Shown one piece after another: positions 454 through 64,000 of a stretch of 64,000 bases of DNA. The translations under genes and the position numbers were made by a program. The stretch lies in the NCBI RefSeq assembly GCF_029201445.1, contig NZ_CP102381.1, positions 248,001-312,000 on the forward strand, given 5' to 3'. The notes beneath the pieces are model-generated. The model saw only the letters and a program-made list of their open reading frames with translations, did not search any database and was not told where the DNA came from. This DNA comes from Thiomicrorhabdus lithotrophica (lineage in GTDB: Bacteria; Pseudomonadota; Gammaproteobacteria; Thiomicrospirales; Thiomicrospiraceae). Position 1 is the stretch's first letter. Each line of letters opens with the position of its first letter.

Positions 454-1641
454 TTAACCGCCAATGCGGGTTTGAATGTTATGAAGGGCTTGAAGTAATT
501 GGTCAATTTGTTCAACGGTATGGCTTGCAGACAAAGTGACTCTTAAGCGTGCCTGGTTTTTTGGCACAGTAGGTGGGCGGATTGCTCCAACCCAAAAACC
601 CGCTTGTTTTAAGGCTTCACTCCAGGCGACGGCTGTTTCACTTTTACCCAACATAATCGGTTGAATAGCGGTTTCACTTGGCCAAAGGTTTAGCCCGATT
701 TTGAGTGCACCTTCTCTAAAGTGTTTGATGTTTTGTTGTAAAGCTTCACGTGAAGCTTCAGCGTTTTTAACTAATTTTAAGGCTTCTCGTATCGCCAGAG
801 CGTTAAGCTGTGGCATAGCGGTAGTGTAGATATAAGGTCGTGCAAACTGAATGAGTGTTTCGATTAAGGTTTCACTTCCTGCTACAAATGCGCCAGAAGT
901 GCCAAAAGCTTTGCCAAGTGTACCGACAATAATGGTGTTTTCATCAGGCTCTAAACCAAAGTGCTCAAAACAGCCCTTGCCTTGTTTGCCCAAAGTACCA
1001 ATGCCATGCGCATCATCCACAAATAACCAGGCCTGGTAGTTTTGTGCGAGTTGCTGAAGGGTTTTAAGTGGCGCAATATCACCATCCATACTGAATACGC
1101 CATCGGTCACAATCATCACTTGGCTATTTTGTGCTTGAGCTTGCTTGAGACGGCGTTCAAGAGCCTCCATGTCCAAATGGGGATAGCGTTTTACAGTTGC
1201 GGCAGAGAGTTGCGCGCCATCAATTAAAGAGGCGTGGTTTAACTTGTCTGCCAAAATGGTGTCACCTGCTTGCATAAGGGTTTGTTGCACGGCTAGATTA
1301 GCCATATAGCCTGTGGAAAACAATAGGGTACGTTCGACTCCAAGCCAGTCAGCGAGTTCATCTTCTAGTAGGTGATGATGAAGGTGGTGCCCTGTAACCA
1401 GATGCGCTGCGCCAGAACCATAGCTAATATCATCTTCTGTATTTAAGCTGTTTAACAAAGCTTGTTTGATATTAGGATGGTTAGCTAATCCAAGATAGTC
1501 ATTGGAGGAAAAATTAATGCACTCAATACCGTTTATTTGCATTATCGGTTGCTGAGGGGAAAACACTAAAGGACGACGGCGATAAAGATGCTCTTGCTCG
1601 CGTTGCTTAAGTAGAGGTTGAAAGCGGTTTTGAATAGACAT
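454..1641 (-). CDS. bioF: 8-amino-7-oxononanoate synthase
   Basis: This PLP enzyme condenses pimeloyl-ACP (or -CoA) with alanine in the first step of biotin ring assembly, in the cytoplasm. The 395-residue length is normal. Visible hallmarks are the DDAHGIG motif at about 209-215, which holds the PLP-pyridine aspartate, and TLGKAFG with the Schiff-base lysine near residue 244. It lies 43 bp downstream of bioB in the same direction, so the two are probably co-transcribed. One exact copy of the iterated palindrome ACCAGGCCTGGT falls at 1026-1037 and encodes Gln-Ala-Trp (residues about 203-205) just before the DDAHG motif. No bioA, bioC, bioD or bioH is in the window. Confidence 0.95.
   Translation of the reverse strand: MSIQNRFQPLLKQREQEHLYRRRPLVFSPQQPIMQINGIECINFSSNDYLGLANHPNIKQALLNSLNTEDDISYGSGAAHLVTGHHLHHHLLEDELADWLGVERTLLFSTGYMANLAVQQTLMQAGDTILADKLNHASLIDGAQLSAATVKRYPHLDMEALERRLKQAQAQNSQVMIVTDGVFSMDGDIAPLKTLQQLAQNYQAWLFVDDAHGIGTLGKQGKGCFEHFGLEPDENTIIVGTLGKAFGTSGAFVAGSETLIETLIQFARPYIYTTAMPQLNALAIREALKLVKNAEASREALQQNIKHFREGALKIGLNLWPSETAIQPIMLGKSETAVAWSEALKQAGFWVGAIRPPTVPKNQARLRVTLSASHTVEQIDQLLQALHNIQTRIGG
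1026..1037. repeat. Iterated palindrome ACCAGGCCTGGT, exact copy in bioF
   Basis: Exact 12-bp palindrome, read as part of Tyr-Gln-Ala-Trp-Leu in bioF. The flanks do not extend the symmetry. Confidence 0.85.
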
Positions 1642-1684
1642 GTTTGATGAAGTGTTTGGCCTAAAGAATTAGCCCAAAGCACTT

Positions 1685-2710
1685 TTATGCAGTAAGTTCA
1701 GTGACTTGTTCAGCCATTTTTTTAGCTTCCGCTTCCGCTTTAACATTCTGCTGCATTTCGATGCCGAGCTTTTTAAATAGTTGAATATCGTGATCAGATT
1801 CTGGGTTTTCAGTGGTGAGTAGTTTATCGCCATAGAAAATTGAATTTGCACCCGCTAAGAAACAAAGCGCTTGTGCTTCATCGGTTAGTGTCATACGGCC
1901 TGCTGATAAACGAACATAGGTTTGTGGCATAACAATACGTGCCGCGGCAATGACTCGTATAAATTCAAATGAATCTGTTTGATCTTTCATATGAGCTAAG
2001 GGTGTACCTTCAATTGGCACTAATAGGTTAATAGGCACGGAATTAGGGTGTACTCGCATAGTTGCGAAAGTTCTTAACAGTTCAGCACGGTCTTTATGCT
2101 GTTCACCCATGCCGATAATACCGCCAGAGCAAACATTGATGCCTGCTTCTTGTACTTTATCAATGGTATCTAAACGATCTTGGTAGCTACGAGTTGTGAT
2201 GATTTTTGGATAGAAAGCTTCAGAGGTATCTAGGTTATGGTTGTAATAATCTAGACCGGCTTCTTTAAGTTGTTTAACCTGGTCATCGTTCAGCATGCCT
2301 AAAGTCAGACAAGTTTCTAAACCTAAGTCTTTAACAACACGCACCATTTCTAAAACACGTGGAAAATCTTTTTTAGTTGGATTGCGCCAAGCAGCTCCCA
2401 TGCATAAACGCGTAGCGCCACGTTCTTTAGCCACTAAAGCTTGTTCGATGACCTCTTGTACTTCCATCATCTGTTCTTTTTCAATTTCAGTGTGATTACG
2501 AGCGCTTTGAGAGCAATATGAACAATCTTCTGCGCATCCGCCTGATTTGATATTAACCAAAGTACTTGTTTGTACTGTATTTGGATTAAAGTGTTGGCGG
2601 TGTGCAAGCTGGGCTTGAAACATTAAATCATTGAAAGGTTGGTCCATAATGGCGCGAATCTCTTCCAGTGTCCAGTCGTGTCTTACTTGGCCTACATTTT
2701 CCATATTCAT
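1685..2710 (-). CDS. bioB: Biotin synthase (radical SAM)
   Basis: BioB inserts sulfur into dethiobiotin. The radical-SAM cluster motif CAEDCSYC is at residues 59-66, with three cysteines spaced CxxxCxxC. The 341-residue length is typical and the C-terminus ends in an Ala/Glu/Lys-rich tail. Start choice: the ORF begins Met-Asn-Met, so two ATGs six bases apart are possible. It precedes bioF on the minus strand and is divergent from comF, with a 135-bp shared upstream region. I looked there for a BirA-type operator (TTGTAAACC inverted arms) and did not find a convincing one. Confidence 0.96.
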
Positions 2711-2845
2711 AATTTTGTTCCAATGTTGTTCTTTTCTTAAAACTTTGGTTTGTGCGTCGTTAATCTAGCTTAAGCAGTTTTAGGAATAAATTTTTTATTA
2801 CGTTATTATAGCCTATAACCTTCTTTATAAGAAAAGGAGTCTTAA

Positions 2846-4589: not shown

Positions 4590-4592
4590 AAC

Positions 4593-5304: not shown

Positions 5305-7140
5305 CTATTTTACGAGATTTGTTTGCTGTTGAATACACTCTAATGTATCTAAGTAGCTTGGGTAGTTGATGGCCTGAGCAAGAAGCTTATTTTGATCTTG
5401 AATGACACTGTTGGGTTTTAAGCAACTAACCAACGCTGCTGGGCTAGGTATGGGACCATCTTCCATTAGCCACTCCCCTTTTTGCTGAGGCAAAATCGGT
5501 GTCGCGCCATATTGCCAGCCAGTTGAGCTATAAAAATCTTGGACGAGCTTTTGTTTAATAAAAATAAGGCTTGTTTCAAACTGAGTATCTTTAGTGGCAT
5601 CTTGATAATCTCGAAGCCCTTTTTTAATAAAGGCATAGTCTTGAATATTCGCTTCTCCGATCAGTTGATTGTTTTCTACAATGGCTCTAGGTGCATTTTG
5701 TAGTTGAATGTTGGTACTCAATTTAGAAGCCAACTGTTTCGCCTGAGTTAGATAGTTTACAGTTTTAAAGGTTTGATAGGCTTGGCTTAGAGCACTTAAA
5801 ACTAAACCGTTCCAACCTAAAATACCCTTGGTATCCGTTGGAATCTCTGTAGGGGGTATTTGGAGTTTTTGACGAATTATTTGCCATGTGTTCTTTGACA
5901 GAATGGGAGAAGGGTGCCAGCCAAGTTCATAGGGTGGTGCGCTATCTAATAACCAGGCCTGTTGTATTAAATCGAATTCTGAATCAGTAAGCTTGGCCTG
6001 TAACTGGCGCTTGCTCCAAAGATAATCTCCGCCTTCCAGGCTATTTTTATCTATGGCAGATTGACTGCCAAGGTATAGCTGAGTTTGAGGGTTATATAAA
6101 TGGGTTTGTAAATAGTTGAGTGTCATTTTGGCGGTATCAAGATAGTCTTGGCGTTGCCATCTAGTTCCAGCGGAAAGGTAGGTTTGAATAAGTAAAGCAT
6201 TGTCGTAGGCCATTTTTTCAAAATGGGGGGTTTGCCAGTTAGGGTCAACGGTATAGCGGTAAAAACCGCCATGGATATGGTCAAAAAGGTGTTCTGATTG
6301 CATTTGGTCTAAAGTAAGAATCAGCCACTCCTCAATTTCTTCAGGCAACTTATCAATAGAAAGTAGCGTATTCAACAGTGGTGCCTTTGGAAACTTAGAG
6401 GTATTTTTAAGGCCGCCGCTTAAGTCATCTTTGGCTTGATTGACTTGATCTAGTAAGCGCTGTGTAAATTGTTGAGGGGTTAGTGTGAGTTCGGTGTACT
6501 TAACGTTCGGATTGGAAGCCTCTGGTTTTGCGAACTGTTGGGCTAGAGTTTCAATTTCAGTCGGGCGAGAAGTCCATAAACTTACAATGCGCTGCAAGGT
6601 TTTTTGTAGTTCTTTGTTTGGCAGGTAAATAAAAGAAGCAAATGGGTAACCTGAGGGTGTAAGAATGACATGCTGAGGCCAACCCGCTTGCCCTGTGCTT
6701 TTTTGTGCAAACTCAATCAAAGTTTTATCTAATTCAGGGTTTAGTTCACGATCTATTTTGACTGAGATAAAGTGTTTATTGATGTAGGTAGCCGTTTCTG
6801 GATTTTGATAGTTCTCATCTTGCATAACGTGGCACCAGTGGCATGAGAAGTAACCGCTGGATATGAACACCAGTTTATTTTCTTGTTGTGCGGTTTTAAG
6901 AATAGCCTTATTCCATAGTTGCCAGTCTACTGGGTCGTTACCATGCATCGCTAGATATGAGCTGTTATTGTTTTGCAGAATATTTGTAAAGTTCGTGGAG
7001 GCCGTATTTGAATTAGAAGCTTGAACGCTGGTAATCGGAACAAATAGGCTAAGGAAAATAATGGCTAAGATTTTAAAAGGATCTAAAGTTACCAGGCCTG
7101 GTAACTTTGTTTTAGGTTGTTTTATGACAGTAGATATCAT
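5305..7140 (-). CDS. DUF255 thioredoxin-like domain protein (YyaL/SSP411 type), exported
   Basis: The protein has an N-terminal thioredoxin-like domain with the characteristic CHWCH motif (residues about 100-104), then TGQAGWPQ and an all-helical region resembling (alpha/alpha)6 barrels. This matches DUF255/YyaL proteins, whose role is unclear. The open frame extends upstream to 7374, but its first 78 residues overlap tatC in another frame and are basic low-complexity. I therefore place the start at the ATG at 7138-7140, preceded by an AAAGG ribosome site and 22 bp after the tatC stop. From that start residues 20-41 form a signal peptide ending VQA, an export signal that fits its position behind tatABC. 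A 24-bp palindrome lies within the signal-peptide codons. Confidence 0.82.
   Translation of the reverse strand: MISTVIKQPKTKLPGLVTLDPFKILAIIFLSLFVPITSVQASNSNTASTNFTNILQNNNSSYLAMHGNDPVDWQLWNKAILKTAQQENKLVFISSGYFSCHWCHVMQDENYQNPETATYINKHFISVKIDRELNPELDKTLIEFAQKSTGQAGWPQHVILTPSGYPFASFIYLPNKELQKTLQRIVSLWTSRPTEIETLAQQFAKPEASNPNVKYTELTLTPQQFTQRLLDQVNQAKDDLSGGLKNTSKFPKAPLLNTLLSIDKLPEEIEEWLILTLDQMQSEHLFDHIHGGFYRYTVDPNWQTPHFEKMAYDNALLIQTYLSAGTRWQRQDYLDTAKMTLNYLQTHLYNPQTQLYLGSQSAIDKNSLEGGDYLWSKRQLQAKLTDSEFDLIQQAWLLDSAPPYELGWHPSPILSKNTWQIIRQKLQIPPTEIPTDTKGILGWNGLVLSALSQAYQTFKTVNYLTQAKQLASKLSTNIQLQNAPRAIVENNQLIGEANIQDYAFIKKGLRDYQDATKDTQFETSLIFIKQKLVQDFYSSTGWQYGATPILPQQKGEWLMEDGPIPSPAALVSCLKPNSVIQDQNKLLAQAINYPSYLDTLECIQQQTNLVK
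5952..5963. repeat. Iterated palindrome, one-mismatch copy (ACCAGGCCTGTT)
   Basis: Eleven of twelve bases match. It encodes Gln-Ala-Trp in the DUF255 protein, the same reading as most exact intragenic copies. Confidence 0.55.
7085..7108. repeat. 24-bp perfect palindrome centred on ACCAGGCCTGGT
   Basis: The exact 12-mer at 7091-7102 is extended on both sides by six complementary bases (AAAGTT on the left, AACTTT on the right), giving a perfect 24-bp palindrome. It is the longest dyad of the family in this window and encodes Leu-Pro-Gly-Leu-Val in the signal peptide of the DUF255 protein. Confidence 0.85.
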
Positions 7141-7162
7141 AGAAACAACCTTTAAAAAACGG

Positions 7163-8284
7163 CTATGAATTATCGCTAGATTTGTTTTTAGTGACTGAAC
7201 TATCTTGAGAAGATTTTTGAGTTGAATCATCTTCTGTTGAGTCTTTCTTAGATGTATCGTCGCTATTGTTATCATCATTGGCTTTATCTGATTTCTCTTT
7301 TTCAGCTTTTTGACGCGCTTCGTAGTCTCTCTCAAGTTGTAGCATTTCAGAATCAATATTATCAAATTCTGCATCCCAATCTAAGTCATCATCTACTTGA
7401 TCAGCGTAACGGTCATCAAAGTCATATTCAGGGGTTTCATTTACATGACCGTTATCAGTACTATTTTGTTTCGTTTCAGTTGTTTTTGTTTGCGTTGATG
7501 TATTTGTATCAGGCTCATCATCGTTACCGTCAATGCTGTTTATACCGCGACGTTTGATGATATAGGCACCAATAATTAAACCTAATTCAAATAATAGCCA
7601 CATTGGTACAGCTAGTAGTGTTTGAGAGATAATATCTGGTGGTGTTAATAGCATTCCGATAACGAATGCGCCAACCACGATGTATGGGCGTGCATGGCTT
7701 AGTTTTTCAGGTTTAGTCATGCCACTGACAATCAATAGTATGGTGACAATTGGAACTTCAAAGGCCATACCAAAGGCAAAAAACATCTTAATTACGAAGT
7801 CTAGGTAAAGAGAGATGTCTGTTGCAATGGTTACGCCGTCAGGAGCAGATTGAGATAAGAATCCGAATACCAGTGGAAAAACTACATAGTAGGCAAATAA
7901 TCCGCCAGCATAAAATAAGAATGAGCTAAAGAACAGAAGTGGAGCAACTAGCTGTCGTTCATGCTTGTATAAGGCCGGGGCAATAAAGCGCCATAGTTGA
8001 TATAGCAAATATGGCATGGCCAAATAAATGGCTAATACAAAACTTAATTTGAATGGCGTTAAAAACGGCGATGCTACTGCTGTAGCAATCATGCTTGTGC
8101 CTTCAGGCAAATAGCGTGTCAGTGGTTCTGAAATATAGGTATAGATTTCATTTGCGAAAGGAAACAGAATGATAAAAAAGACAATAATTGCCAAGATACT
8201 GCGAGTAAGACTCGTCTTTAAGTCCAATAAGTGTTGGACTAAAGTCATTTCTTGATCATTAGGAGGCAGCGCGGCGTTGCTCAT
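7163..8284 (-). CDS. tatC: Sec-independent protein translocase TatC with long acidic C-terminal tail
   Basis: TatC is the polytopic receptor of the twin-arginine export pathway for folded proteins. Residues 1-245 are a standard TatC core with six membrane helices and the family block FEVPIV at about 175-180. E. coli TatC ends at about 258 residues. Here a further stretch of about 122 residues (251-373) follows, rich in Asp, Glu, Ser, Asn, Lys and Thr, predicted disordered and cytoplasmic. The tail is in frame with the core and no stop separates them. It is third in a tatA-tatB-tatC operon, eight bases after tatB. Confidence 0.95.
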   Translation of the reverse strand: MSNAALPPNDQEMTLVQHLLDLKTSLTRSILAIIVFFIILFPFANEIYTYISEPLTRYLPEGTSMIATAVASPFLTPFKLSFVLAIYLAMPYLLYQLWRFIAPALYKHERQLVAPLLFFSSFLFYAGGLFAYYVVFPLVFGFLSQSAPDGVTIATDISLYLDFVIKMFFAFGMAFEVPIVTILLIVSGMTKPEKLSHARPYIVVGAFVIGMLLTPPDIISQTLLAVPMWLLFELGLIIGAYIIKRRGINSIDGNDDEPDTNTSTQTKTTETKQNSTDNGHVNETPEYDFDDRYADQVDDDLDWDAEFDNIDSEMLQLERDYEARQKAEKEKSDKANDDNNSDDTSKKDSTEDDSTQKSSQDSSVTKNKSSDNS

Positions 8285-10812: not shown

Positions 10813-10824
10813 ACCAGGCCTGGT
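10813..10824. repeat. Iterated palindrome ACCAGGCCTGGT, exact copy between hisA and hisF
   Basis: Exact copy whose last base overlaps the hisA stop region; it fills half of the 31-bp spacer between the two genes. The flanks do not extend the symmetry. Confidence 0.85.
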
Positions 10825-12224: not shown

Positions 12225-12812
12225 TTACAAGCTTCCTTTGGTAGAGGGCATTTTGCCAGCCATGCGCTCATCTTGACTAAGAGCCATGCGGAGTGCGCGA
12301 CCAAAAGCTTTGAAAATAGTTTCTGCTTGGTGGTGAGAGTTATGGCCTCTTAGGCAGTCGATATGTAAAGTTGCGTTAGCGTGATTTACAAATCCCTGAA
12401 AGAATTCAAAAACGAGCTCTGTCTCAAAATTACCAATTTTTTCACGAGTGAAATCAGCGTTAAAAACCAGGCCTGGTCGACCTGATAAATCGATAACAAC
12501 ACGCGATAATGCCTCATCTAAAGGTACATACGCATGCCCGTAACGAGTAATGCCTTTTTTGTCGCCAACCGCTTTATTAATTGCTTGCCCAAGCGTGATA
12601 CCGATATCTTCAACAGTATGGTGGTCATCAATGTGAGTGTCGCCATTGGCTTTAATATCAAGGTCAATCATGCCATGACGTGCTATTTGGTCAAGCATAT
12701 GTTCAAAGAATGGCACTCCCGTATCCAGTTTGGCTGTTCCTTCGCCATCTAGGTTTACGGAAATGGTAATTTGAGTTTCTAGCGTATCGCGTTCAACGTT
12801 TGCAGTGCGCAT
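12225..12812 (-). CDS. hisB: Imidazoleglycerol-phosphate dehydratase
   Basis: HisB dehydrates imidazole glycerol phosphate. At 195 residues this is the monofunctional form without the HisN phosphatase domain of enteric HisB. Metal-binding motifs [10 protein letters not shown] and [10 protein letters not shown] are intact. It is the first gene of the his operon. An exact iterated palindrome at 12466-12477 encodes Pro-Gly-Leu-Val within the conserved SGRPGLVF block, so here the palindrome is compatible with the family consensus. Confidence 0.97.
12466..12477. repeat. Iterated palindrome ACCAGGCCTGGT, exact copy in hisB
   Basis: Exact copy, read as Pro-Gly-Leu-Val in hisB. The flanks are not complementary. 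Confidence 0.85.
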
Positions 12813-26494: not shown

Positions 26495-26495
26495 T

Positions 26496-52415: not shown

Positions 52416-53014
52416 TTCTTACGGCCGACATACCAAGCGTAACGATGTTTGCTATTGTTTTCATCTTGGGTTGATGGTGTTGCATTTTCACTGCTTAGCC
52501 AGCCTTCACCGTAAACCAAGGTCTCTAGGTTTAACCAGGCCTGGTTAAGTTCATTGGTTTGTAAATAAAAGTCAGGGTTACTGGGGGCATTGTCTTGTAT
52601 TGGCGCTAAAAAGGTTTGATAAAACAGTAAACCACCTGGTTTGAGCGCATCTTCTATGGCTTTAAACTGCTTTCTGTCTAAGTAACGACTAACCACAATA
52701 ACGTCAAACTGCTGGTAAGGCAAAATCATCTGCTCTAAATTCGTGACTAGAGGCATAATTGGTAATTGATTCAAGCTTGCCCAATTGTTTAATACGGTCA
52801 ATGCACTGTCTGATATATCCCAAGCATGAGTTTTTAGGCCGCACTGAGCTAAGAAGCGTGCATTGCCACCTAAGCCACAAGCGAGTTCTAAAGCTTGGCC
52901 TTTAAATGGCAGTAAACGGCTGTGTTGTTTTACTACAAAGCAAGGGTTAGCAGGTGTTTGCAAAGTCGATTTAGAATATTTTGCATCCCACTTTTCGGCA
53001 AGTTTATCTGTCAT
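52412..53014 (-). CDS. Class I SAM-dependent methyltransferase (TehB-like)
   Basis: The SAM motif ALELACGLGGNARFLA is at about 37-52, and CGLKTHAWDISDSAL is the following acidic loop. The region DVIVVSRYLDRKQFKAIEDALKPGGLLFYQTF matches the TehB/tellurite-type methyltransferases. It is 200 residues long. The substrate is unknown. A copy of the palindrome with 18-bp symmetry encodes Leu-Asn-Gln-Ala-Trp-Leu. Confidence 0.87.
   Translation of the reverse strand: MTDKLAEKWDAKYSKSTLQTPANPCFVVKQHSRLLPFKGQALELACGLGGNARFLAQCGLKTHAWDISDSALTVLNNWASLNQLPIMPLVTNLEQMILPYQQFDVIVVSRYLDRKQFKAIEDALKPGGLLFYQTFLAPIQDNAPSNPDFYLQTNELNQAWLNLETLVYGEGWLSSENATPSTQDENNSKHRYAWYVGRKK
52531..52548. repeat. 18-bp perfect palindrome centred on ACCAGGCCTGGT, in the methyltransferase gene
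   Basis: The exact 12-mer at 52534-52545 is extended by TTA on the left and TAA on the right. Confidence 0.85.
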
Positions 53015-53025: not shown

Positions 53026-54477
53026 TTATTTGCGCCAGAAAGCAGCCGTAAAGAGTACAAGAAGGGTAAAGATTTCAAGTCGTCCCAACAACATGGCAAA
53101 AGTTAATACCCACTTTACTGGATCACTCATAGATTGGTAGTTGGCAGCAACGTCGGCTAACCCTGGTCCTAGATTGTTCATCATGGCGGCAATGGCAGAG
53201 AAAGCGGTAACTTGGTCAACGCCTAAAGCCATAATGATGAGCATAAGCACAGCAAAGGTAAAGACATAAACTGAGAAAAATCCCCATACGGCCGTCATAA
53301 CTTTTTCTGGGATACTTTTGCCACTGAGCTTAACTGGCATAATGGCATTTGGGTGAAGTAGGCCGGTGATTTCACGCATACCTTGTTTAAACAGTAGAAC
53401 AAAACGAATGACTTTCATACCACCCGCAGTAGAGCCAGCGCTGCCGCCAATAAAACTCATGAGTATTAGCATAACAGGTAAGAATCCTGGCCAAACTGAG
53501 AAATCCGCATTGGAATAGCCAGTAGTCGTTGCTATAGAAATGGCTTGAAAAACACCATATCGAATGGCTTCTTCCCAGGTTGGGTAAACTGACTGAAAAT
53601 AGAGGTAGGATGTTGCAATCGCAGCTGTTGCGATTAGCAGGCCTGCATAGGCTTTGAATTCAGGATCATAAAAGTAGGCGTAGCCGCTAAGGTGCCTAAA
53701 AGCGGTAAAGTGTAGGGCGAAGTTAATCCCTGATAAAAACATGAAGATAATCGCGACTATCTCAATATGGATACTGTTGAAGTAACCGATACTGTCATCG
53801 TGAGTAGAAAAGCCACCAATTGCAACAGTAGAAAAACTATGTGTAACCGCATCAAACCAATTCATGCCTGCAAGCCAATAGCTGATAGCACAGGTTATTG
53901 TTAGCCCTAGATAGATGTACCAAAGGGCTTTAGCGGTTTCAGAAATACGGGGGGCAATTTTAGAGTCTTTAATAGGGCCAGGTGTTTCTGCACGATAGAG
54001 CTGCATGCCACCGATGCCTAACATCGGTAAGATGGCAACCGCTAAAACGATAATCCCCATTCCGCCCATCCATTGGAGTTGCTGACGATACCAAAGTATT
54101 GCGTGAGGAAGTTCGTCTAAGCCAATAATGACGGTAGCACCAGTAGTTGTTAAGCCAGAGAAGGATTCAAAAATAGAATCCGTTAAGCTAAGTGGAACAT
54201 CCTCATCTATAAAGAATGGCAAGGCTCCTGCTAAACCGAGAACGGTCCAGAACATGACCACGACTATAAAACCATCACGAATTTTGAGCTCACGGGAGTG
54301 ATTTCTAACTGGGTACCAAATGATCAAACCTGTTAACAAAACTCCGATTAGCACACTGCTAAAAGCGGTGAACCCACCATCTTTGTAGTAGAGGGCGACC
54401 ATAATAGGGGGCAGCAAGCTGATGCTGTAAACCATCAGCAGTAAGCCAAAGACTTTTAATATGATTTTTGAATGCAT
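53026..54477 (-). CDS. trkH: Trk potassium uptake membrane subunit
   Basis: TrkH forms the K+ channel-like transporter. About ten to twelve helices and four P-loop filter motifs are visible, such as GLTTTGATV, THSFSTVAIGGFSTHD, ATTTGYSNADF and AMMNNLGPGL. The 483-residue length is typical. It is 27 bp downstream of trkA, whose product binds it. Confidence 0.95.
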   Translation of the reverse strand: MHSKIILKVFGLLLMVYSISLLPPIMVALYYKDGGFTAFSSVLIGVLLTGLIIWYPVRNHSRELKIRDGFIVVVMFWTVLGLAGALPFFIDEDVPLSLTDSIFESFSGLTTTGATVIIGLDELPHAILWYRQQLQWMGGMGIIVLAVAILPMLGIGGMQLYRAETPGPIKDSKIAPRISETAKALWYIYLGLTITCAISYWLAGMNWFDAVTHSFSTVAIGGFSTHDDSIGYFNSIHIEIVAIIFMFLSGINFALHFTAFRHLSGYAYFYDPEFKAYAGLLIATAAIATSYLYFQSVYPTWEEAIRYGVFQAISIATTTGYSNADFSVWPGFLPVMLILMSFIGGSAGSTAGGMKVIRFVLLFKQGMREITGLLHPNAIMPVKLSGKSIPEKVMTAVWGFFSVYVFTFAVLMLIIMALGVDQVTAFSAIAAMMNNLGPGLADVAANYQSMSDPVKWVLTFAMLLGRLEIFTLLVLFTAAFWRK

Positions 54478-55962: not shown

Positions 55963-57303
55963 CTACTGAGGGTTTTTTGGATTGATTCCTAGCGCTTTTA
56001 ATTTACGGTATAAATTAGTTCTATCTACGCCAGATCGTTTGGCTGTTTCTGAAACGTTTCCACTTGTTTCACGTAAAAGCTGACTAAGATAGCGGGCTTC
56101 AAACTGCTCCTTACCTTCTTTTAAAGGTAGGCTTGTATCAACGACATGATTCAATGCATTGCTAGCTTGCGAATTTAGTAGTAGCTCTCTAACTTCTTCA
56201 TCACTCACATCGCCGCTGCCTAAAATGAGTAGGCGTTGAATTAAGTTCTTTAATTCTTTTAAATTACCAGGCCAGGTATGTTGGCGCAAAATATTTTGGG
56301 CAGAAACACTAAAGTGGCGGTATTCTAAACCTTCAAACGATACAAAGTGGTCAACAAAATAATCTACTAGCTCGGGAATATCTTCGGTGTGTTGACGAAG
56401 AGCAGGAATATGAATAGGCATGACTTTAAGTCTTTGATACAGGTCTTCTCTAAAAGTTTGGTTAGCGACCGCGCCTTCTAAGTCCCCTTTGGTTAAGGCG
56501 ATGACTCTAATATCAATACAAACGGCATCACTGGTGTTGTCTAATTTGTAGCATTGTTTTAAAACAATGTTTGAAAGGAGTGTTTGTGCATCTTCTGACA
56601 GTTCTTCAATATTCGCAATAATAAGCGTGCCCTGATGTACCTCTCTAAGGGATTTTTTGAGTTTGTCGAGGTTTTCAGGTAGACAGAGCTGGTTAAAATC
56701 TAAAGCATGAAAAGGCGTGCAAGAGGAAGGGTGGCGTTGACTTGTTTTATGAATAGCCTCTGCAAAATGGTGTTTACCTGTGCCGCTTTCACCCGTAACC
56801 AAAATTGGCATAGTAAATTTAGACAGACGATCCAAAGTTTCCCTTAACTGAATCACAGATTTACTTTTACCAATAGGTAAAAACTGCTCAGGTTGTTTCT
56901 GTTTAAGTTGACGGTTTTCTTGGTTAAGCTGATTGTGTTCAATCGCACGTTCTGCAGTGACAATTAATTTGGCCAAAGAGAGTGGTTTTTCTAAAAAGTC
57001 ATAAGCGCCTAATCGGGTTGCTTCAATAGCCGTTTCGATGGTTCCGTGTCCAGACATCATAATGACTTTGGTGTTTTCTAAAACACCTTCATCCTGCATC
57101 TGCTTGAGTAAAGAAATTCCATCAATGTCGGGCATCCAAACATCAAGAAAAATCAAATCAGGTAAAAAACTACGCCATGCATTTTGAGCTTGAACACCAT
57201 TTGCGGCTGTTTCTACCTGGTAGCCTTCTTCAATAAAAATTTCTTCCATTAAACTGCGAATATCTTTTTCATCATCCACAATTAATAATTTAACTGGTTT
57301 CAT
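55963..57303 (-). CDS. NtrX-like response regulator with degenerate AAA+ domain
   Basis: The receiver is intact (Asp54 in LIFLDVWMPDIDG). Walker A (GESGTGK, 171-177) is present. The stretch that in NtrC-type activators holds ELFGHEKGAFTGA is missing, and the Walker B region reads GTLIIANIEEL without the usual Asp-Glu. The Fis-type HTH (LYRKLKALGI region) at the C-terminus is intact. The 446-residue regulator can probably bind DNA but not activate sigma-54 RNA polymerase. It overlaps the kinase gene stop by four bases (ATGA). A one-mismatch palindrome at 56266 is noted separately. Confidence 0.9.
   Translation of the reverse strand: MKPVKLLIVDDEKDIRSLMEEIFIEEGYQVETAANGVQAQNAWRSFLPDLIFLDVWMPDIDGISLLKQMQDEGVLENTKVIMMSGHGTIETAIEATRLGAYDFLEKPLSLAKLIVTAERAIEHNQLNQENRQLKQKQPEQFLPIGKSKSVIQLRETLDRLSKFTMPILVTGESGTGKHHFAEAIHKTSQRHPSSCTPFHALDFNQLCLPENLDKLKKSLREVHQGTLIIANIEELSEDAQTLLSNIVLKQCYKLDNTSDAVCIDIRVIALTKGDLEGAVANQTFREDLYQRLKVMPIHIPALRQHTEDIPELVDYFVDHFVSFEGLEYRHFSVSAQNILRQHTWPGNLKELKNLIQRLLILGSGDVSDEEVRELLLNSQASNALNHVVDTSLPLKEGKEQFEARYLSQLLRETSGNVSETAKRSGVDRTNLYRKLKALGINPKNPQ
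56266..56277. repeat. Iterated palindrome, one-mismatch copy (ACCAGGCCAGGT)
   Basis: The mismatch turns CCAGG-CCTGG into CCAGG-CCAGG, so two abutting CCWGG sites are kept although the dyad is lost. Confidence 0.45.
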
Positions 57304-59480
57304 GCATTCTCACTTGAGATTATAGGTAGTTTTATTATAAAACAGGTTCCATTATCGCGGGAAGATGTCAGGGTTATTTTACCGTGATGTTCTTCAACAA
57401 TTTTGCGTACAACTGCCAAACCTAGACCTGTGCCTTTAGGTTTGTCAGTAGCGTAAGGTTCAAAAATCCAGTTTTGGGCTTCTTCTGGAATCCCTGGGCC
57501 GTTATCACAAATTGATAAGGTCAACCAATCATTCTCTGTACATAGGGTTTTTACAATGATTTTAGGCAAAATAGTATTTTCGGTCGCCTCAATCGCATTT
57601 TTGATTAAATTGTGTAAAAGTTGCCTTAGGCGTGAACTGTCAATTAAAGCAGGCGGGCAGTTGTCATCGAGTTCCGCCATGACTTTCCATAACGCTTCAG
57701 GATCTCGGTACATTTCTGCAATATTAGAAATCAGTTTATTAATTTTGGTTGGCACAAGTTGCACTTCGGGGGTGTTGGCATAGTCACTAAAGGCTTGTAC
57801 CAGTTTTTGCATGGTAGACACTTGCTCGATAATCGTTTCTGTCATGCGGCTAAGTAAGGCCTGGTCAGTGTCATCCAGTTTATTATGCAGTTTGAACTTT
57901 AAACGCTCGGCTGAGAGTTGAATCGGGGTCAGAGGGTTTTTAATTTCATGCGCAAGGCGACGAGCAACGTCACTCCAGGCTGCATGAAGCTGAGCTTGCA
58001 CTAGTTCAGTAATATCATCAATCACAATAACGTAACCACCTATTTTCTGGTCGATACTAGGCAGAGTTGATCCATGAACCATTAATATTTTTTGACCTTT
58101 TTTACAGGCAAAATCTAACTGTACTGTCCAGGGTTTAGAACTTTTCTCAAACTTAGGTGCGATTTTATTTACTAAATCCATGAGATGAGCGGTGTCTTCT
58201 CTGTCTGTAATGTCGGTAATTTTTTTACCAATATGTCGTCTTAAATCGGTATTTAATATTACTTGCACCGTATCGTTGATAGTACGAATACGGTAGTGCA
58301 TGTCCAGAGTTACGACGCCACTAGAGAGGTTTTTGATAATCGCCTGTAAATAGAGTTTTTGTACCTCTGTTTGCTGGTGTCCGAGTTTAATCTCGTTACG
58401 TGCTTTAGAAATACGTTGAATCATGTCGTTAAAGGATTGGATTAAGTCACCAAATTCATCGTTTTGTGGCACGTGCATTTTGACGCTATAGTCACCTTTA
58501 GAAACCGCTCGGGTTCCTTTTGCCAATGTTCTGATTGGGCGTGTAAAGTTTTGAACCGCTTGAATGGTAAAAAGTACGGCGGTAACCAAAGTAAGCAATA
58601 ACACCATTGAGAGAATCAAAATAAAACTCGCGGTTAGCGGTCCTTTTAAATAGGACAGTTCTTTATATTGACCTGAGGCGGTACCAACCGATTGGGAGAG
58701 CAACGTGATATCGGCAGGAATGGGAAAGATGACCTGCAAAGCGTGTTGTGTATTAAGGTTAGTATCTGAAAAAGGGATCACAACTCGAATGAAATCTTCC
58801 TGAATGGTGGCACCAGGTCTATTTTCTAGAGCAGCGTAAGTTTTGTCATTACGTATTTGTTGAAATAGGTTGGCACCAGGGGTTTCAGGCAAAATGGCCG
58901 TGGCGTATTCACTACTGAAGGCAATGAGTTGTTGGTTAATACTGTAAAGTGCGACTTCTTGAGCGTTAAGTTGTTGGCGTAAAGTGTTGACTGCAATGCC
59001 TGGAGAGGTGCTTAATAATTCGCGATTGGCATCAGTAATGGACTGCGTAAGTTTTAAGCTGTCACGTGTTTTGTTATCTAAGCTAATACGCACTAAAGAA
59101 GTGGCATTGTCCAAAGCGATTTCTGTTTTAACATCAAACCATTGGTTGATACCTTGTTGAATAAAGTTTAAGGAAAAATAGAAAATAATGGCCGTTGGGA
59201 TTCCAAGTACCAAGCTAGCAATAACGGTTAGACGAACGGTAACTTTTGAGCCTGGTACTTTTTTACGAAACTGTATATAGAGTTTGAAAATAGTTCGCAG
59301 AAGCAGAACCAGAAGTACGGCTGTGCCGGCAACCGTGAAAAAAAGTAGAGCAGAATAACTGTCAGCAAAACTTGAAGCGTTTTGTAAGGTTTGACTCATG
59401 ACCACCAAAGCCATAAGCAACAAACTCGAAAGTAGGGTTAACCACCCATATTGTTTTATATAGCGCCAGTATGAATTCAT
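57300..59480 (-). CDS. NtrY-like membrane sensor histidine kinase
   Basis: ATG at 59478-59480 is chosen over a TTG six bases upstream, because it overlaps the DUF4390 stop in an ATGA (726 residues). Helices at about 11-30, 44-65, 82-107 and 282-306 enclose a periplasmic sensor region. HAMP, PAS and HisKA with RRLAHEIKNPLTPIQLSAERL follow, then the ATPase with NLIKNAIEA and GTGLGLAVV. The NPLTPIQLSAERL block is typical of the NtrY family. Downstream it overlaps the NtrX-like regulator gene by four bases. Confidence 0.93.
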   Translation of the reverse strand: MNSYWRYIKQYGWLTLLSSLLLMALVVMSQTLQNASSFADSYSALLFFTVAGTAVLLVLLLRTIFKLYIQFRKKVPGSKVTVRLTVIASLVLGIPTAIIFYFSLNFIQQGINQWFDVKTEIALDNATSLVRISLDNKTRDSLKLTQSITDANRELLSTSPGIAVNTLRQQLNAQEVALYSINQQLIAFSSEYATAILPETPGANLFQQIRNDKTYAALENRPGATIQEDFIRVVIPFSDTNLNTQHALQVIFPIPADITLLSQSVGTASGQYKELSYLKGPLTASFILILSMVLLLTLVTAVLFTIQAVQNFTRPIRTLAKGTRAVSKGDYSVKMHVPQNDEFGDLIQSFNDMIQRISKARNEIKLGHQQTEVQKLYLQAIIKNLSSGVVTLDMHYRIRTINDTVQVILNTDLRRHIGKKITDITDREDTAHLMDLVNKIAPKFEKSSKPWTVQLDFACKKGQKILMVHGSTLPSIDQKIGGYVIVIDDITELVQAQLHAAWSDVARRLAHEIKNPLTPIQLSAERLKFKLHNKLDDTDQALLSRMTETIIEQVSTMQKLVQAFSDYANTPEVQLVPTKINKLISNIAEMYRDPEALWKVMAELDDNCPPALIDSSRLRQLLHNLIKNAIEATENTILPKIIVKTLCTENDWLTLSICDNGPGIPEEAQNWIFEPYATDKPKGTGLGLAVVRKIVEEHHGKITLTSSRDNGTCFIIKLPIISSENA

Positions 59481-60151
59481 TGCCAACTCAACGGTGTTTG
59501 TAAAGATGTTTCAAACCATTGGCTTTCTAGTCGCCAAGTTGAAGTGGTTAAGGCTTCTAAAATCAATGGTGTCGGTAACTTCCAAAAATCTAGGGAAATT
59601 CTCATTCGTAAAGTATACCGCTGTTCTGGGTGTAATTCAGAAAGAGATGCAACAGGAAAGGCCTGCAGTGTGGCTAAGGTTTGCAAAGCTTCGTCTATGG
59701 TAATAAAGGTTTGTGTTTTTTTGTTGCGATGATTGTAGAGCGCATACAAACGGTTTACCCCATAAGCGTATAAATCTGTACGGTATTCAATGATATTTCT
59801 GGAACGTTCATACCCAAACCCCAATAGGCTTTTACGCTCAGTTAATTCTATACGTGTATTAAAGCTTAAAGGGATTTCATGATGTACGGCGTCAATGACT
59901 TCTTGGGGAAGATTAAAGCGGCTTTCTGAGTCGATTAGGAGTTGTTTATTCTGCTGATAATCACGCACTTTAAGGATTTCGATTTCATAATCTGCTAGAC
60001 CAGGTGTGGCTATTACCAGGCCTGGTAGAATCATGAATAAGGTTTTTATTAATGATTTTTTAAGGCCTTTAAGCTTGAATGAAAGAGGTGCGCGATGAAA
60101 TGCATAAATGATTTGCGAGATTAGAACGGCAAATGCATTTGCTGAATTCAT
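59477..60151 (-). CDS. DUF4390 domain exported protein
   Basis: The 224-residue protein has a signal region with LFMILPGLVIATPGLADYE and a beta-rich domain ending LRMRISLDFWKLPTPLILEAL, the DUF4390 pattern. The ATG at 60149-60151 is chosen; an upstream GTG at 60161-60163 would add four residues. DUF4390 is often found between rsmB and ntrY in gammaproteobacteria, and its function is unknown. The signal sequence is encoded partly by an exact palindrome (60015). Confidence 0.87.
   Translation of the reverse strand: MNSANAFAVLISQIIYAFHRAPLSFKLKGLKKSLIKTLFMILPGLVIATPGLADYEIEILKVRDYQQNKQLLIDSESRFNLPQEVIDAVHHEIPLSFNTRIELTERKSLLGFGYERSRNIIEYRTDLYAYGVNRLYALYNHRNKKTQTFITIDEALQTLATLQAFPVASLSELHPEQRYTLRMRISLDFWKLPTPLILEALTTSTWRLESQWFETSLQTPLSWQ
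60015..60026. repeat. Iterated palindrome ACCAGGCCTGGT, exact copy in DUF4390 gene
   Basis: Exact copy, symmetric over 14 bp, read as Leu-Pro-Gly-Leu-Val in the signal peptide, like the 7085 copy. Confidence 0.85.
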
Positions 60152-60155
60152 TGCG

Positions 60156-61499
60156 CTACTCACTCTTCTCTAGTAAGCAGTAAAAGAAACCATCCATCCC
60201 TAAACGACCTGGCAGGTATTGATTGCCAGGTGTGTCAAAAGTAAGTGTCGCTTCCAAATCTAAAGGGATGATTTTGGCGGTAGCTTCTGACTCAATAAAG
60301 CTTTGCATCTGTAACGTATTCTCTTGCGGTAGAACCGAACAGGTTGCGTAGAGTAGTTGGCCACCTGGTTTTAAGGTTGGCCATAATGCTTTTAAGATAC
60401 TCGCTTGAATCTCAACTAACGCTTCGATGTCTTCTTCAGTTCTGTGCCATTTGATATCCGGATGACGTCGGATAATTCCCGTTGCTGAACAAGGCGCATC
60501 CAAAAGAATTTTGTCAAACAATTGCTTATCCCACCACTCTTCAGGACAAGAAGCATCGCCAACCGTATATTCGGCATCAAGCTCTAAGCGATATAAGTTC
60601 TCGGCTAAACGATCCATGCGTTCAGGCATTTTTTCTAATGCAAAAACGCTTGCCTGGTTATTAGATAATTCTAAAAGGTGAGTGGTTTTTCCACCAGGCG
60701 CCGCGCAAGCATCTAATATGCGTTCATTGGCTTGCGGTTTTAAGATGTTGGCGGCTTGTTGAGCGGCACCATCTTGCACGCTAAAACCGCCATCTTCATA
60801 GCTTGGCAGTTGTGAAATATCGGTACTGGTTTCTAAAATAACGCCTTGTGGAGCGGTTGGGTGAGGGGTGGCAACCATATCAACCGTTTTCAATAGCGCT
60901 AAAAACTCATCGCGCGTTTGCTTCATGGTATTCACGCGCAAGGTCAGCGGAGCAATGGCATTATTCGCTTCCATAATGGATTCCCAGTCATTGGGATAGC
61001 CCTTGCGTAATGCTTTAAAGAGCCATTGCGGGTGAGAATATTTATTGGCTGGCTTTAGATCTGCTTGTGCACAAATGGCATCCTGTTCGCGCAAGAAGGT
61101 ACGTAGAACCCCGTTAACTAATGCTTTGGCCCAAGGCTTTTTAAGCTTTTGAACGACTGCGACAGTTTCAGAAACCGCTGCGTGTTCCGGCGTTTCCATA
61201 TAGAGAATTTGGTACAGACCGATCAGAATCAATTGGTTAATGTCTTCGTCTTTCTCTTTTAATTTCTTTTTGAGTAGTTGAGCGCGAATGGCCTCTAAAC
61301 GCGCTTGCCAGCGAAGCGTACCTATCACCATGTTTTGAGTGAAGTTGCGTTCTCTACGGTCTTGAAACTGCGCCAGACCTTCTGGCAAGGTTTGGCTTAA
61401 TGAGCGACCGCTTTCAATGACGGTTAAACAAATTTTAAGGGCAATAAAACGACTGTTTAAACCTGAGTTGGGCGTGTTGTTAGCTGCTTGCTTACTCAT
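60156..61499 (-). CDS. rsmB: 16S rRNA (cytosine(967)-C(5))-methyltransferase
   Basis: RsmB methylates C967 of 16S rRNA. An N-terminal NusB-like RNA-binding domain (about 15-150) precedes the Rossmann methyltransferase with LDACAAPGGKTTHLLE, DAPCSATGIIRRHPDIKW and YATCSVLPQEN, the last holding the catalytic cysteine. The 447-residue length is normal. Its start codon overlaps the fmt stop by one base. Gene order def-fmt-rsmB is the widespread one. Confidence 0.97.
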   Translation of the reverse strand: MSKQAANNTPNSGLNSRFIALKICLTVIESGRSLSQTLPEGLAQFQDRRERNFTQNMVIGTLRWQARLEAIRAQLLKKKLKEKDEDINQLILIGLYQILYMETPEHAAVSETVAVVQKLKKPWAKALVNGVLRTFLREQDAICAQADLKPANKYSHPQWLFKALRKGYPNDWESIMEANNAIAPLTLRVNTMKQTRDEFLALLKTVDMVATPHPTAPQGVILETSTDISQLPSYEDGGFSVQDGAAQQAANILKPQANERILDACAAPGGKTTHLLELSNNQASVFALEKMPERMDRLAENLYRLELDAEYTVGDASCPEEWWDKQLFDKILLDAPCSATGIIRRHPDIKWHRTEEDIEALVEIQASILKALWPTLKPGGQLLYATCSVLPQENTLQMQSFIESEATAKIIPLDLEATLTFDTPGNQYLPGRLGMDGFFYCLLEKSE

Positions 61500-62455
61500 T
61501 AGAACTGGTAGCCATCTAACTTTCTAGACTGTGCAAAATCATAAGCACTCATGGCTTTTTTGCCCGCAGGCTGAACTTGTTGCACACAGATTGGTTCATC
61601 GCCAGTGGCAATAATTAATCCATTTTTATTTAACGAAAGCACCAGGCCTGGTAACTTGGTCATATCTGCAAATTCTTGTTGTTCTTCAGCGGTTAATTGA
61701 CGTGCCTGCCAGATACGTAATGGTTTGTCCTGAAAAAGAGTATAAGCCACTGGCCAAGGGTTAAACGCTTGGATTTTACGAACAATCTTCAGCGCAGGTT
61801 GGTTCCATTGCACTTCAGCTTCTTCTTTATGCATTTTTTCAGCATAGGTCACCAAAGATTCATCTTGGACTTCAGGCGTAATTGTTTGTTTTTGTAGGCC
61901 ATCAAGGGTAGCAATTAATGCTTCACAACCTAATACACTCAAACGATCATGTAGGGTTTGTGCCGTGTCATCAGGCGTAATGTCGGTCGTCAGCTTATAA
62001 AGCATATCGCCGGTATCTAAGCCGGCATTCATCTGCATAATCGTCACGCCACTTTCTTTGTCACCGGATTCAATCGCACGTTGAATTGGCGCCGCACCAC
62101 GCCAGCGCGGAAGTAGCGAAGCATGAATGTTCAAGCACCCCATCTTTGGCATATCCAGCACAACCTGAGGCAGAATGAGTCCATAGGCAACCACAATCAT
62201 AATATCTGCATTCAGGCTATTAAGTGTTTGTTGAGCCTCTACGTCTTTTAAAGATTCAGGTTGGTAAACTGCGATGCCATTTTCTTCTGCAACCTGCTTA
62301 ACCGGGCTTGCGGTGAGCTTGCGTCCACGTCCAGCAGGTCGGTCAGGTTGAGTGTAAACGGCAATAACATCGTGTTGAGAGTTTAGTAGGGCTTGAAGTG
62401 GCGCAACTGAAAAATCAGGTGTACCCGCAAAAATAATGCGTAATGCTTGGCTCAT
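61499..62455 (-). CDS. fmt: Methionyl-tRNA formyltransferase
   Basis: Fmt formylates initiator Met-tRNA. HASLLPRWRGAAPIQRAI contains the active-site region and MNAGLDTGDMLYK is the following signature; 318 residues is standard. It lies six bases after def. An exact palindrome at 61641 encodes Lys-Leu-Pro-Gly-Leu-Val in the C-terminal domain. Confidence 0.97.
   Translation of the reverse strand: MSQALRIIFAGTPDFSVAPLQALLNSQHDVIAVYTQPDRPAGRGRKLTASPVKQVAEENGIAVYQPESLKDVEAQQTLNSLNADIMIVVAYGLILPQVVLDMPKMGCLNIHASLLPRWRGAAPIQRAIESGDKESGVTIMQMNAGLDTGDMLYKLTTDITPDDTAQTLHDRLSVLGCEALIATLDGLQKQTITPEVQDESLVTYAEKMHKEEAEVQWNQPALKIVRKIQAFNPWPVAYTLFQDKPLRIWQARQLTAEEQQEFADMTKLPGLVLSLNKNGLIIATGDEPICVQQVQPAGKKAMSAYDFAQSRKLDGYQF
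61641..61652. repeat. Iterated palindrome ACCAGGCCTGGT, exact copy in fmt
   Basis: Exact copy, read as Pro-Gly-Leu-Val. Confidence 0.85.
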
Positions 62456-62461
62456 ATTGGA

Positions 62462-62968
62462 TTATTGCTCTTTTTCTTCAAGTGATTTACGGAACTTCTG
62501 CAAAGCGCGACTGCGTTTCAATCCGGATAAATGGTCAATAAACAAAGTTCCATTCAGATGATCAATTTCATGCTGAATACAAACGGCTAATAATTCATCG
62601 GCCTCAAGCTCTATGATTTTGCCGTCACGGTTCATGCCGCGAACAATAATATCGCTTGGTCTTTTTACGGTTGCGTAAATACCTGGAATAGACAGGCAAC
62701 CTTCTTCCCATGAAATTTGTCCTGCCGAACGAATTATTTCAGGATTGATTAAGGCAATCGGTTGGTCTTTAGTTTCAGAAACGTCCACCACAATAATTCG
62801 CTCTTGAACCGCAATTTGCGGTGCGGCCAAGCCAATTCCTGGCGCATCATACATGGTGTAAAACATGTCGTCGATGAGCTTATCAATCTCATCATTCATT
62901 TCTGGAACAGGGGCGCAGACTTCACGAAGTCCAGCTTCAGGGTAGAGAACAATATCGAGTTTTTCCAT
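62462..62968 (-). CDS. def: Peptide deformylase
   Basis: Def removes the formyl group from nascent proteins. The three family motifs are present: GIGLAAPQ, EEGCLSIPG (metal-binding Cys) and QHEIDHLNG (metal-binding histidines). The 168-residue length is normal. It is first in def-fmt-rsmB and divergent from dprA across only 48 bp. Confidence 0.97.
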   Translation of the reverse strand: MEKLDIVLYPEAGLREVCAPVPEMNDEIDKLIDDMFYTMYDAPGIGLAAPQIAVQERIIVVDVSETKDQPIALINPEIIRSAGQISWEEGCLSIPGIYATVKRPSDIIVRGMNRDGKIIELEADELLAVCIQHEIDHLNGTLFIDHLSGLKRSRALQKFRKSLEEKEQ

Positions 62969-63016
62969 AGCGTCGTATATACTTCAATAAATAATTGCGA
63001 TCTATTATAGCTGACT

Positions 63017-64000
63017 ATGTCAAATTTTGCCGATTTACCCACAATCTTACGCCTACATAATTGCCATGTAACTTTTAAACAGTTAGAGGCCATTCAGCAG
63101 CACTTTGGCAGCTTAAATGTTGCGCTTGATTCTAATGAATCGGATTGGAAGCATGCCGAACTTTTAAAAGAAAATCAGTTGGCAATGTTATTTTCTGACG
63201 ACTCAAAACAAAGATTAGAGCAGGCTTTAGATTGGGGACAACAAACTAACCAGGCCTGGTTAATGTTGGGCGAAATGGTATATCCTAAACAGCTTACTGA
63301 AATCAGTGATCCACCTATTTTGCTGGGTGTACGTGGTAATGCGGGGTTATTGAACGACCCGCAAATTGCGATTGTGGGCAGTCGACATGCATCCAAACAA
63401 GGTGCTGAAACGGCAAAGGATTTTGCTCATTATCTTTCACAGCAAGGTTTAGGTATTACGAGTGGGCTAGCATTGGGCATTGATACTGCAGCACATCAAG
63501 GCGCTTTGTTAGGTATAGGCAAAACCGTAGCGGTGGTGGCAACAGGGCTCGATCGGATTTATCCAGCCTCTAACCAAAAACTTGGGCACCAAATAGTAGA
63601 AGAGGGGGTGATGATTTCTGAATTCCCTCTAGGTACAAAACCTCTAAATTTCAATTTTCCAAGACGTAACCGTATCATTAGTGGTTTAAGTGTCGGTACT
63701 TTGGTAGTTGAAGCGGCTTTAAAAAGCGGATCCTTAATCACTGCCAGAACAGCTTTAGAACAAGGTCGAGAAGTGTTTGCGGTACCCGGTTCTATTCATA
63801 ATCCTCAAGCAAAAGGTTGTCATCAGTTAATCAAGCAAGGTGCAAAGCTGGTTGAATCAGGTCAAGATGTTTTAGAAGAGCTAGCGAGCAATTTACAGTA
63901 CGCTTTAGATCTCGATAGCCACGAGCCCCAAGCGGCTAAAACTGCATCGACTAATCACGAAAGAAACACAAGCCGTTTGTTAGAGTGGATTGGTTATGAT
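63017..64000 (+). CDS. dprA: DNA processing protein DprA (Smf), truncated at the window edge
   Basis: DprA loads RecA on incoming single-stranded DNA during transformation. The ATG at 63017 opens 328 codons without a stop before the window ends. The Rossmann-like core has IAIVGSRHASKQGAETAKDF, LGITSGLALGIDTAAHQGAL, FPRRNRIISGLSVGTLVVEA and SGSLITARTALEQGREVFAVPG, all diagnostic. The C-terminal winged-helix domain is starting at the edge (SRLLEWIGYD). Together with comF it suggests natural competence. An exact palindrome at 63249 encodes Asn-Gln-Ala-Trp. Confidence 0.96.
   Translation, partial: MSNFADLPTILRLHNCHVTFKQLEAIQQHFGSLNVALDSNESDWKHAELLKENQLAMLFSDDSKQRLEQALDWGQQTNQAWLMLGEMVYPKQLTEISDPPILLGVRGNAGLLNDPQIAIVGSRHASKQGAETAKDFAHYLSQQGLGITSGLALGIDTAAHQGALLGIGKTVAVVATGLDRIYPASNQKLGHQIVEEGVMISEFPLGTKPLNFNFPRRNRIISGLSVGTLVVEAALKSGSLITARTALEQGREVFAVPGSIHNPQAKGCHQLIKQGAKLVESGQDVLEELASNLQYALDLDSHEPQAAKTASTNHERNTSRLLEWIGYD
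63247..63262. repeat. 16-bp palindrome centred on ACCAGGCCTGGT, in dprA
   Basis: Exact 12-mer at 63249-63260, extended by TA on the left and TA on the right to 16 bp. Confidence 0.85.

Follow-up and report, generated by a model that had tools for sequence, protein, structure and literature searches.

An iterated palindrome with lineage dialects in Thiomicrorhabdus lithotrophica and related sulfur oxidizers resembles DNA uptake signals

The chromosome of Thiomicrorhabdus lithotrophica (genome G000, a single contig of 2,516,205 bases) includes a 12-bp palindrome that is iterated across the 64,000-bp stretch analyzed here, named the window (positions 248,001-312,000). All 13 exact copies and all seven one-mismatch copies that an original prediction, made from the letters of the window, had located are present (Table 1), and the iteration of the palindrome is confirmed: an order-2 Markov model gives an expectation of 0.006 exact copies versus the 13 seen, and 100 dinucleotide shuffles of the window gave a mean of 0 exact copies and 0.05 copies with at most one mismatch. 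As had been proposed, copies are found both inside and between genes, with 16 of the 20 in open reading frames (ORFs) of at least 100 amino acids and four outside them (10813, 22009, 35897, and 63249). Among the one-mismatch copies, the one at 56266 (ACCAGGCCAGGT) has a disrupted core. Two copies of the 8-bp core CAGGCCTG, at 11718 and 53638, had been overlooked because their outer bases deviate. The prediction viewed the palindrome as highly iterated over the genome and not as a motif of a gene family, and called for a whole-genome count; 454 exact 12-mers were found as compared to 0 for the reversed control. Segmental duplication, which had been named among the findings that would speak against this view, is not the cause because the flanks of the copies differ, and an origin from duplications or repeat elements was rejected on the same basis.

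Table 1. Copies of the palindrome and of its core in the window (strand of the ORF in parentheses)
Feature	Coordinates	Context
Exact site	1026..1037	In ORF 454..1641 (-), reads QAW
One-mismatch site, core intact	5952..5963	In ORF 5305..7374 (-)
Exact site	7091..7102	In ORF 5305..7374 (-), reads PGL
Exact site	10813..10824	Between ORFs
Core only (CAGGCCTG)	11718..11725	Inside ORF 11586..12224 by coordinates
Exact site	12466..12477	In ORF 12225..12812 (-), reads PGL
One-mismatch site, core intact	18830..18841	In ORF 18696..19217 (+)
Exact site	22009..22020	Between two convergent ORFs; RNA fold with 10-bp stem, GGCC loop, z -2.3
One-mismatch site, core intact	26412..26423	In ORF 26057..26530 (-)
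One-mismatch site, core intact	29032..29043	In ORF 27684..30005 (-), hybrid histidine kinase-like
Exact site	35897..35908	Between ORFs
Exact site	39754..39765	In metH (38807..42517, -), reads QAW
Exact site	43187..43198	In ORF 42781..43893 (+), reads QAW
One-mismatch site, core intact	44322..44333	In ORF 43894..44661 (+)
One-mismatch site, core intact	45267..45278	In ORF 44699..45379 (+)
Exact site	50553..50564	In ORF 50522..51451 (+), reads QAW
Exact site	52534..52545	In ORF 52412..53014 (-), reads QAW
Core only (CAGGCCTG)	53638..53645	Inside ORF 53026..54477 by coordinates
One-mismatch copy ACCAGGCCAGGT, core broken, may be chance	56266..56277	
Exact site	60015..60026	In ORF 59477..60163 (-), reads PGL
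Exact site	61641..61652	In ORF 61499..62455 (-), reads PGL
Exact site	63249..63260	Outside listed ORFs of at least 100 amino acids

The unit of the repeat is the 8-bp core, and the outer AC..GT is only a preference. Counts in 464 kb of G000 were 237 for AGGCCT (79 expected), 165 for CAGGCCTG (4.5 expected), 106 for CCAGGCCTGG, and 91 for the 12-mer, a series from which it follows that the excess starts at the 8-bp core; the whole genome has 881 copies of it and 2 of the core control. The core sits in a dyad footprint of about 24 bp, with A/T tracts 10-12 bp from the centre. In profiles of G000 and six close relatives, for which both strands were pooled, the flanks favour A/T at -3, a pyrimidine at -4, A/T at -6, and A at -7, mirrored on the opposite side, and are close to background at distances above about 8 bp from it. 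The A-tract at -6 to -8, also mirrored, is lacking in G035/42/54. Because the flank preferences are seen alike in the 203 coding and the 86 intergenic sites of the 289 profiled, they are not merely hairpin effects. A dyad with A-tracts at this distance, present also at coding sites, could be the operator of a cytoplasmic dimeric DNA-binding protein that organizes or segregates the chromosome, such as a nucleoid protein or a condensin loader, each site being kept by selection. We consider this explanation unlikely in view of the spacing and of the dialects described below.

The placement of the core was determined relative to ORFs that had been tiled by length and are not a curated gene set. 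A 484-kb sample of G000 includes 173 cores; 116 of them fall within ORFs and 57 in the intergenic 11.5% of the DNA, where 20 would be expected. The density per Mb is 270 in ORFs, 837 in divergent gaps, 1020 in tandem gaps, and 2037 in convergent gaps, which are the densest class in five of seven genome groups, the other two having less than 400 bp of such DNA. Cores in ORFs are read as x-G-L (74), as Q-A-W/C (38), or in the third frame (4). The distances between cores are those of random placement (coefficient of variation 0.92 versus 0.93); the even spacing of a nucleoid-type arrangement was thus rejected, a result that counts against the chromosome-organizing protein.

Sites located between genes could also be transcription terminators or mobile repeats similar to repetitive extragenic palindromic (REP) elements. 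The 86 intergenic sites have extra self-complementarity at -3 to -5 (0.73 versus 0.46, 0.71 versus 0.55, and 0.45 versus 0.25), and the copy at 22009 folds well, which suggests that part of the intergenic sites also serve as RNA hairpins. However, 203 of the 289 sites are in ORFs and have no such excess at -4 and -5, the flanks return to background close to the core, and the intergenic copy at 10813 folds no better than its shuffles while the coding metH site equals 22009. The coding majority already refutes terminators or REP-like repeats as the sole explanation, and as the basis of the pattern they are hardly credible; use as terminators is probably secondary, in a subset of sites.

The distribution of the core was analyzed in 60 genomes of the family, which belong to the Thiomicrorhabdus/Hydrogenovibrio group, with 35 genomes of other families for contrast. 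Thirty-one family genomes are core-rich (236-1173 cores) and 29 are core-poor (0-74); in the 35 genomes from outside the family, the range is 0-222 cores without correction for base composition. On a tree of 40 genomes built from ten genes of the dcw cluster, in which two long branches (G037 and G045) are uncertain, 7 changes suffice for the core-rich label as opposed to 13.4 after shuffling, the changes being counted for CAGGCCTG only, before the other dialects were known. Four of the seven genera include core-rich genomes, and the signal is therefore probably an ancestral one that was lost or switched several times. Loss in all core-poor genomes was considered and rejected, since at least five of the 29 (G020, G023, and G053/55/57) carry other dialects. 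No dialect was found in G003, G013/31, G012/24, G010/19/26, G016/22/28, G037, or G045, for which 18-140 kb per group were sampled and weak or gapped dialects may escape; the remaining core-poor genomes lie outside the dialect sampling.

Four dialects can be distinguished. In D1, the palindrome CAGGCCTG, the outer bases vary by clade, with A/G/C followed by A/G in G005/17/25 and G or C in G035/42/54. D2, ACCGGCCGGT, is present in 1025 copies in G023, a genome with 12 cores, and in 0-15 copies in the other 61 family genomes. Two relatives of G023, G012 and G024, have 15 copies each (controls 3 and 2), possibly remains of the G023 dialect. D3, CCCARCCTGGCAGATTTT, found in G053/55/57, is asymmetric: CCTGGCAGA occurs 17 times in 200 kb, preceded by CCCAR in 15 cases, and 5 times in 484 kb of G000. 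D4, ACCCGGCCTGTTGAGTTTTT, is also asymmetric and was found in G020, where its first 12 bases, ACCCGGCCTGTT, have 17 copies in 69 kb; the D4 word CCCGGCCTG is absent from 484 kb of G000 and present twice in 79 kb of G013/31. Most dialects have, in their profiles, a T-tract whose distance from the core is constant, and the same holds for most of the listed D3 and D4 sites. Close inverted pairs, one of D3 and two of D4, have their 5' ends facing and their T-tracts outward, and the one pair of each dialect that was folded formed a strong stem.

The dialects also share positions. On the same codons of murF, 12 genomes have the palindrome, G053/55/57 have D3, and G020 has D4. Within the dcw cluster, two of six D4 sites and one of six D2 sites fall on palindrome positions (0.15 expected for each), and the single D3 site is on the murF palindrome position in all three genomes. 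We regard the palindrome, D3, and D4 as variants of a single signal. D2 has less positional evidence in its favour, and its inclusion is supported by A/T tracts at the same distance. The dialects bear on the chromosome-organizing protein as well: two of them are asymmetric, a switch of dialect that affects hundreds of sites is difficult to account for in the absence of a drive, and three closed genomes of the same genus (G003, G019, and G024) have no detected dialect, so that the function of the protein in the chromosome would have to be dispensable.

Site positions are conserved among genomes. When the 231 pairs formed by 22 core-rich genomes were compared, the position was shared in 220 of 867 site comparisons as opposed to 43 of 1592 for 40 letter-shuffled 8-mers, about ninefold more. 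One position in murD is common to 14 of the 22 genomes, which represent three genera; all 14 have QAW in the protein, and the commonest residues listed at this position differ in genomes without the site. The sites therefore outlast what the identity of the surrounding sequence predicts and seem to constrain the protein.

The original prediction compared the pattern to that of HIP1, the highly iterated palindrome of cyanobacteria. The very high frequency of the palindrome holds, but a kinship to HIP1 is not supported: no clear link to any of three methyltransferase families was found, and the asymmetric relatives show that palindromy is not essential. According to the Elhai model, a methyltransferase would modify the GGCC-centred core and methyl-directed mismatch repair would ratchet the number of sites up. 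In favour of this, the palindrome is short and GC-rich, numbers hundreds of copies, and gives way to a different palindrome in a relative, as alternate HIPs do (PMC4390886). On the other hand, profile matches at E values up to 0.001 showed no clear excess of three methyltransferase families in core-rich over core-poor genomes (PF00145, 11 of 31, one below the cut-off, versus 12 of 29; PF01555, 13 of 31 versus 11 of 29, three of these below the cut-off; PF02086, 6 of 31 versus 3 of 29), and the link was rejected. Ten of the 31 core-rich genomes match none of the three, PF02384-type enzymes not being included in the search. The asymmetric dialects and a footprint of about 24 bp, longer than the usual type II methyltransferase site, also speak against a HIP1-type origin, which we consider improbable.

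Two mechanisms could leave a trace of this kind, a drive by uptake and recombination or selection for binding inside the cell. We propose, with a probability of about 0.58, that a DNA self-recognition signal exists throughout the family, with the palindrome as one of its dialects, and that it is similar to the DNA uptake sequences (DUS) of Neisseriaceae and the uptake signal sequences (USS) of Pasteurellaceae, with uptake as its putative function. A sequence-specific receptor of a natural transformation machine would favour fragments carrying the site, and the sites would be restored and propagated through the recombination of DNA imported from kin (molecular drive). Such a drive would make the sites dense, keep old positions, and place sites preferentially in the least constrained sequences, and loss or change of the receptor would lead to loss of the sites or to an altered dialect. 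The putative receptor would bind double-stranded DNA as a two-fold complex on palindromic dialects and one-sidedly on asymmetric ones.

The drive is favoured because of the existence of dialects and asymmetric forms, the random spacing, the preference for unconstrained DNA, the scarcity of sites on a conjugative plasmid, and the retention of ComEC. The plasmid is a 97-kb contig of G018 with Rep3, ParA/ParB-like, and TraN genes, which has 3 cores in 40 kb where 17.7 were expected. Among genomes that are at least 95% complete, ComEC, the inner-membrane DNA channel, is over the family cut-off in all 26 of the core-rich ones versus nine of the 14 in which no signal was detected (Fisher 0.003, kinship ignored), and it is also over the cut-off in all four of the D2 and D3 genomes; the ComEC of G000 has its usual domains. 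Several traits agree with those of uptake sequences, namely the abundance of the word over its controls (454 and 881 copies versus 0 and 2), dialects that follow the lineages, an AT-rich segment beside the core as in USS (the mirrored A-tract of D1 and the T-tract of most D3 and D4 sites), and the intergenic bias together with inverted pairs. The dyad footprint is no objection to uptake because 1294 DUS copies of Simonsiella muelleri overlap in dyad symmetry (simDUS/kingDUS), which according to the authors may indicate dimer-based recognition (PMC3630211). A single core, as compared to 7 expected, was counted in one 20-kb stretch of G000 that includes a C5-methyltransferase gene, an observation made post hoc.

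A signal for recombination or repair read by a nuclease-helicase, similar to Chi, would likewise be iterated, scarce on one conjugative plasmid, and present in lineage dialects. Chi is read on one strand and in one direction, whereas the sites described here form a dyad flanked on each side by AT tracts and have an intergenic bias, and a Chi-like role is very improbable.

Several observations weigh against uptake. The strongest objection is that PilQ is over the cut-off in none of 60 family genomes versus 27 of 35 outside the family, and the ComP_DUS pilin in none of 39 versus 14 of 21 outside. GspH/FimT was found in three of 60, all core-poor (G010, G019, and G026), versus 26 of 35 outside; with respect to PilQ and GspH/FimT the family thus departs from the majority of the other gammaproteobacteria searched. 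Because PilQ and a ComP-like receptor were not detected, we claim likeness to DUS and USS and not membership; the same result favours the chromosome-organizing protein. An MSHA-type pilus cluster is located next to rmuC in G000, and we know of no case in which a pilus of this type acts as an uptake machine. Known uptake sequences are mostly non-palindromic. ComEC is intact in the nine genomes without a detected signal mentioned above, and three of the five exceptions belong to one genus and another (G044) is a short fragment. Moreover, G020 carries D4 and has a comEC split by about 37 kb. Its two collinear halves (G020:C1:50689-51309 and 88072-89325; L343 and L344), one of them adjoined by a D12 methyltransferase gene (87209-87769), look like the result of the insertion of a mobile element; the split would fit a recent insertion and is no test of the uptake idea. 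Four of six D4 and five of six D2 sites in the dcw cluster are off palindrome positions, and the second C5-methyltransferase stretch of G000 has a normal 6 cores in 20 kb. Finally, a lambdoid prophage-like contig with O- and P-like replication genes (L291 and L377, IMGVR_UViG_3300005470_000015) has 6 cores in 11.6 kb and matches a core-rich host in density, which favours the chromosome-organizing protein. The literature search found no uptake experiment for this family.

Taken further, and more tentatively, the sulfur oxidizers might be a third independent bacterial family with a DNA self-recognition signal, comprising at least four dialects that change partly in place and a palindrome readable either way, served by a machine that has no canonical PilQ or ComP and might be an MSHA-type pilus with a dimeric receptor; we regard this extended proposal as less likely than not. 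If true, the evolution of uptake specificity would be directly traceable through in-place dialect changes. A signal of the uptake kind in sulfur oxidizers, with its several losses and dialect switches, would provide an independent test of how uptake signals arise and change, and it predicts a new receptor and a machine lacking canonical PilQ.

An origin of the words in viruses was considered and rejected, as most of the 182 viral stretches tallied look like chance. Words TACCAGGCCTGGTA, ACCAGGCCTGGTAA, and AACCAGGCCTGGTT were found in 36 (one place each), 46, and 35 viral stretches, respectively, and a D4 14-mer in 97, at one place each. Among the viral stretches, L390, L396, and L421 reach 2-3 cores; the numbers 7 in L275 and 4 in L300 come from GC-rich stretches, each of which includes one 12-mer. 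Second replicons, which were not used as evidence, include G015:C2 and G052:C2. In G015:C2, one 20-kb stretch, which carries genes of chromosomal type, has 10 cores and another of equal length has 2; in G052:C2, 2 cores were counted in 16 kb. Other repeats were observed in these genomes. Isolated poly-G tracts are numerous in the related G022, G028, and G016 (L185, L186, L187), where GGGGGGGGA occurs 15 times in 46.6 kb (0.54 expected). The word GAGACCTTTGCA, perhaps a REP-like element, has 9 copies in 40 kb of G015 (L112, L113), and the mraY-murD gap of G018 (L153) includes a similar inverted repeat. In the window, an 18-mer is repeated seven times between 36749 and 38008 with a spacing of exactly 207 bp, within ORF 36594..38465 (-), which codes for 623 amino acids, has no NCBIfam matches, and presumably includes 69-residue tandem repeats.

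To our knowledge, uptake sequences have been described only in Neisseriaceae and Pasteurellaceae. The original prediction knew of no description of the palindrome for this lineage, and our search (Thiomicrospira and palindrome, competence or methylome, and Thiotrichales uptake signal) recovered none among the papers listed; ACCAGGCCTGGT or CAGGCCTG as a whole word was not found either, in a search that left out most subscription papers and in which absence is no proof. PMC3630211 calls the requirement for uptake sequences unique to these two groups, and describes DUS as abundant in each genome, divided into species dialects, often intragenic, and present as inverted pairs that form stems at terminators, traits to which the signal of the sulfur oxidizers can be likened. 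The same source places CTG in every DUS dialect; it is also present in D1, D3, and D4 but not in D2 (ACCGGCCGGT). The signal differs from DUS in its sequence, the order of bacteria, its A/T tracts, a perfect palindrome as main dialect, and the undetected ComP_DUS and PilQ. USS have a core with AT-rich segments on the 3' side, are ancestral to their family, and have clade-specific types (PMC1626085); D3 and D4 similarly consist of a core followed by a T-tract. The USS core is unrelated, USS are asymmetric, and for USS the uptake preference has been measured, whereas the signal of the sulfur oxidizers was recognized in genome sequences. HIP1 and the alternate HIPs are also short GC-rich palindromes iterated over the genome, with another one in some relatives, and accompany a methyltransferase for the sequence (PMC4390886); the sulfur oxidizers differ in showing no association with the three methyltransferase families, in the longer footprint, and in the asymmetric relatives. 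The family-wide iterated palindrome with its dialects fits best a signal of the DUS/USS kind, which, if true, would extend such signals beyond the two known groups, with a perfect palindrome and a dyad footprint.

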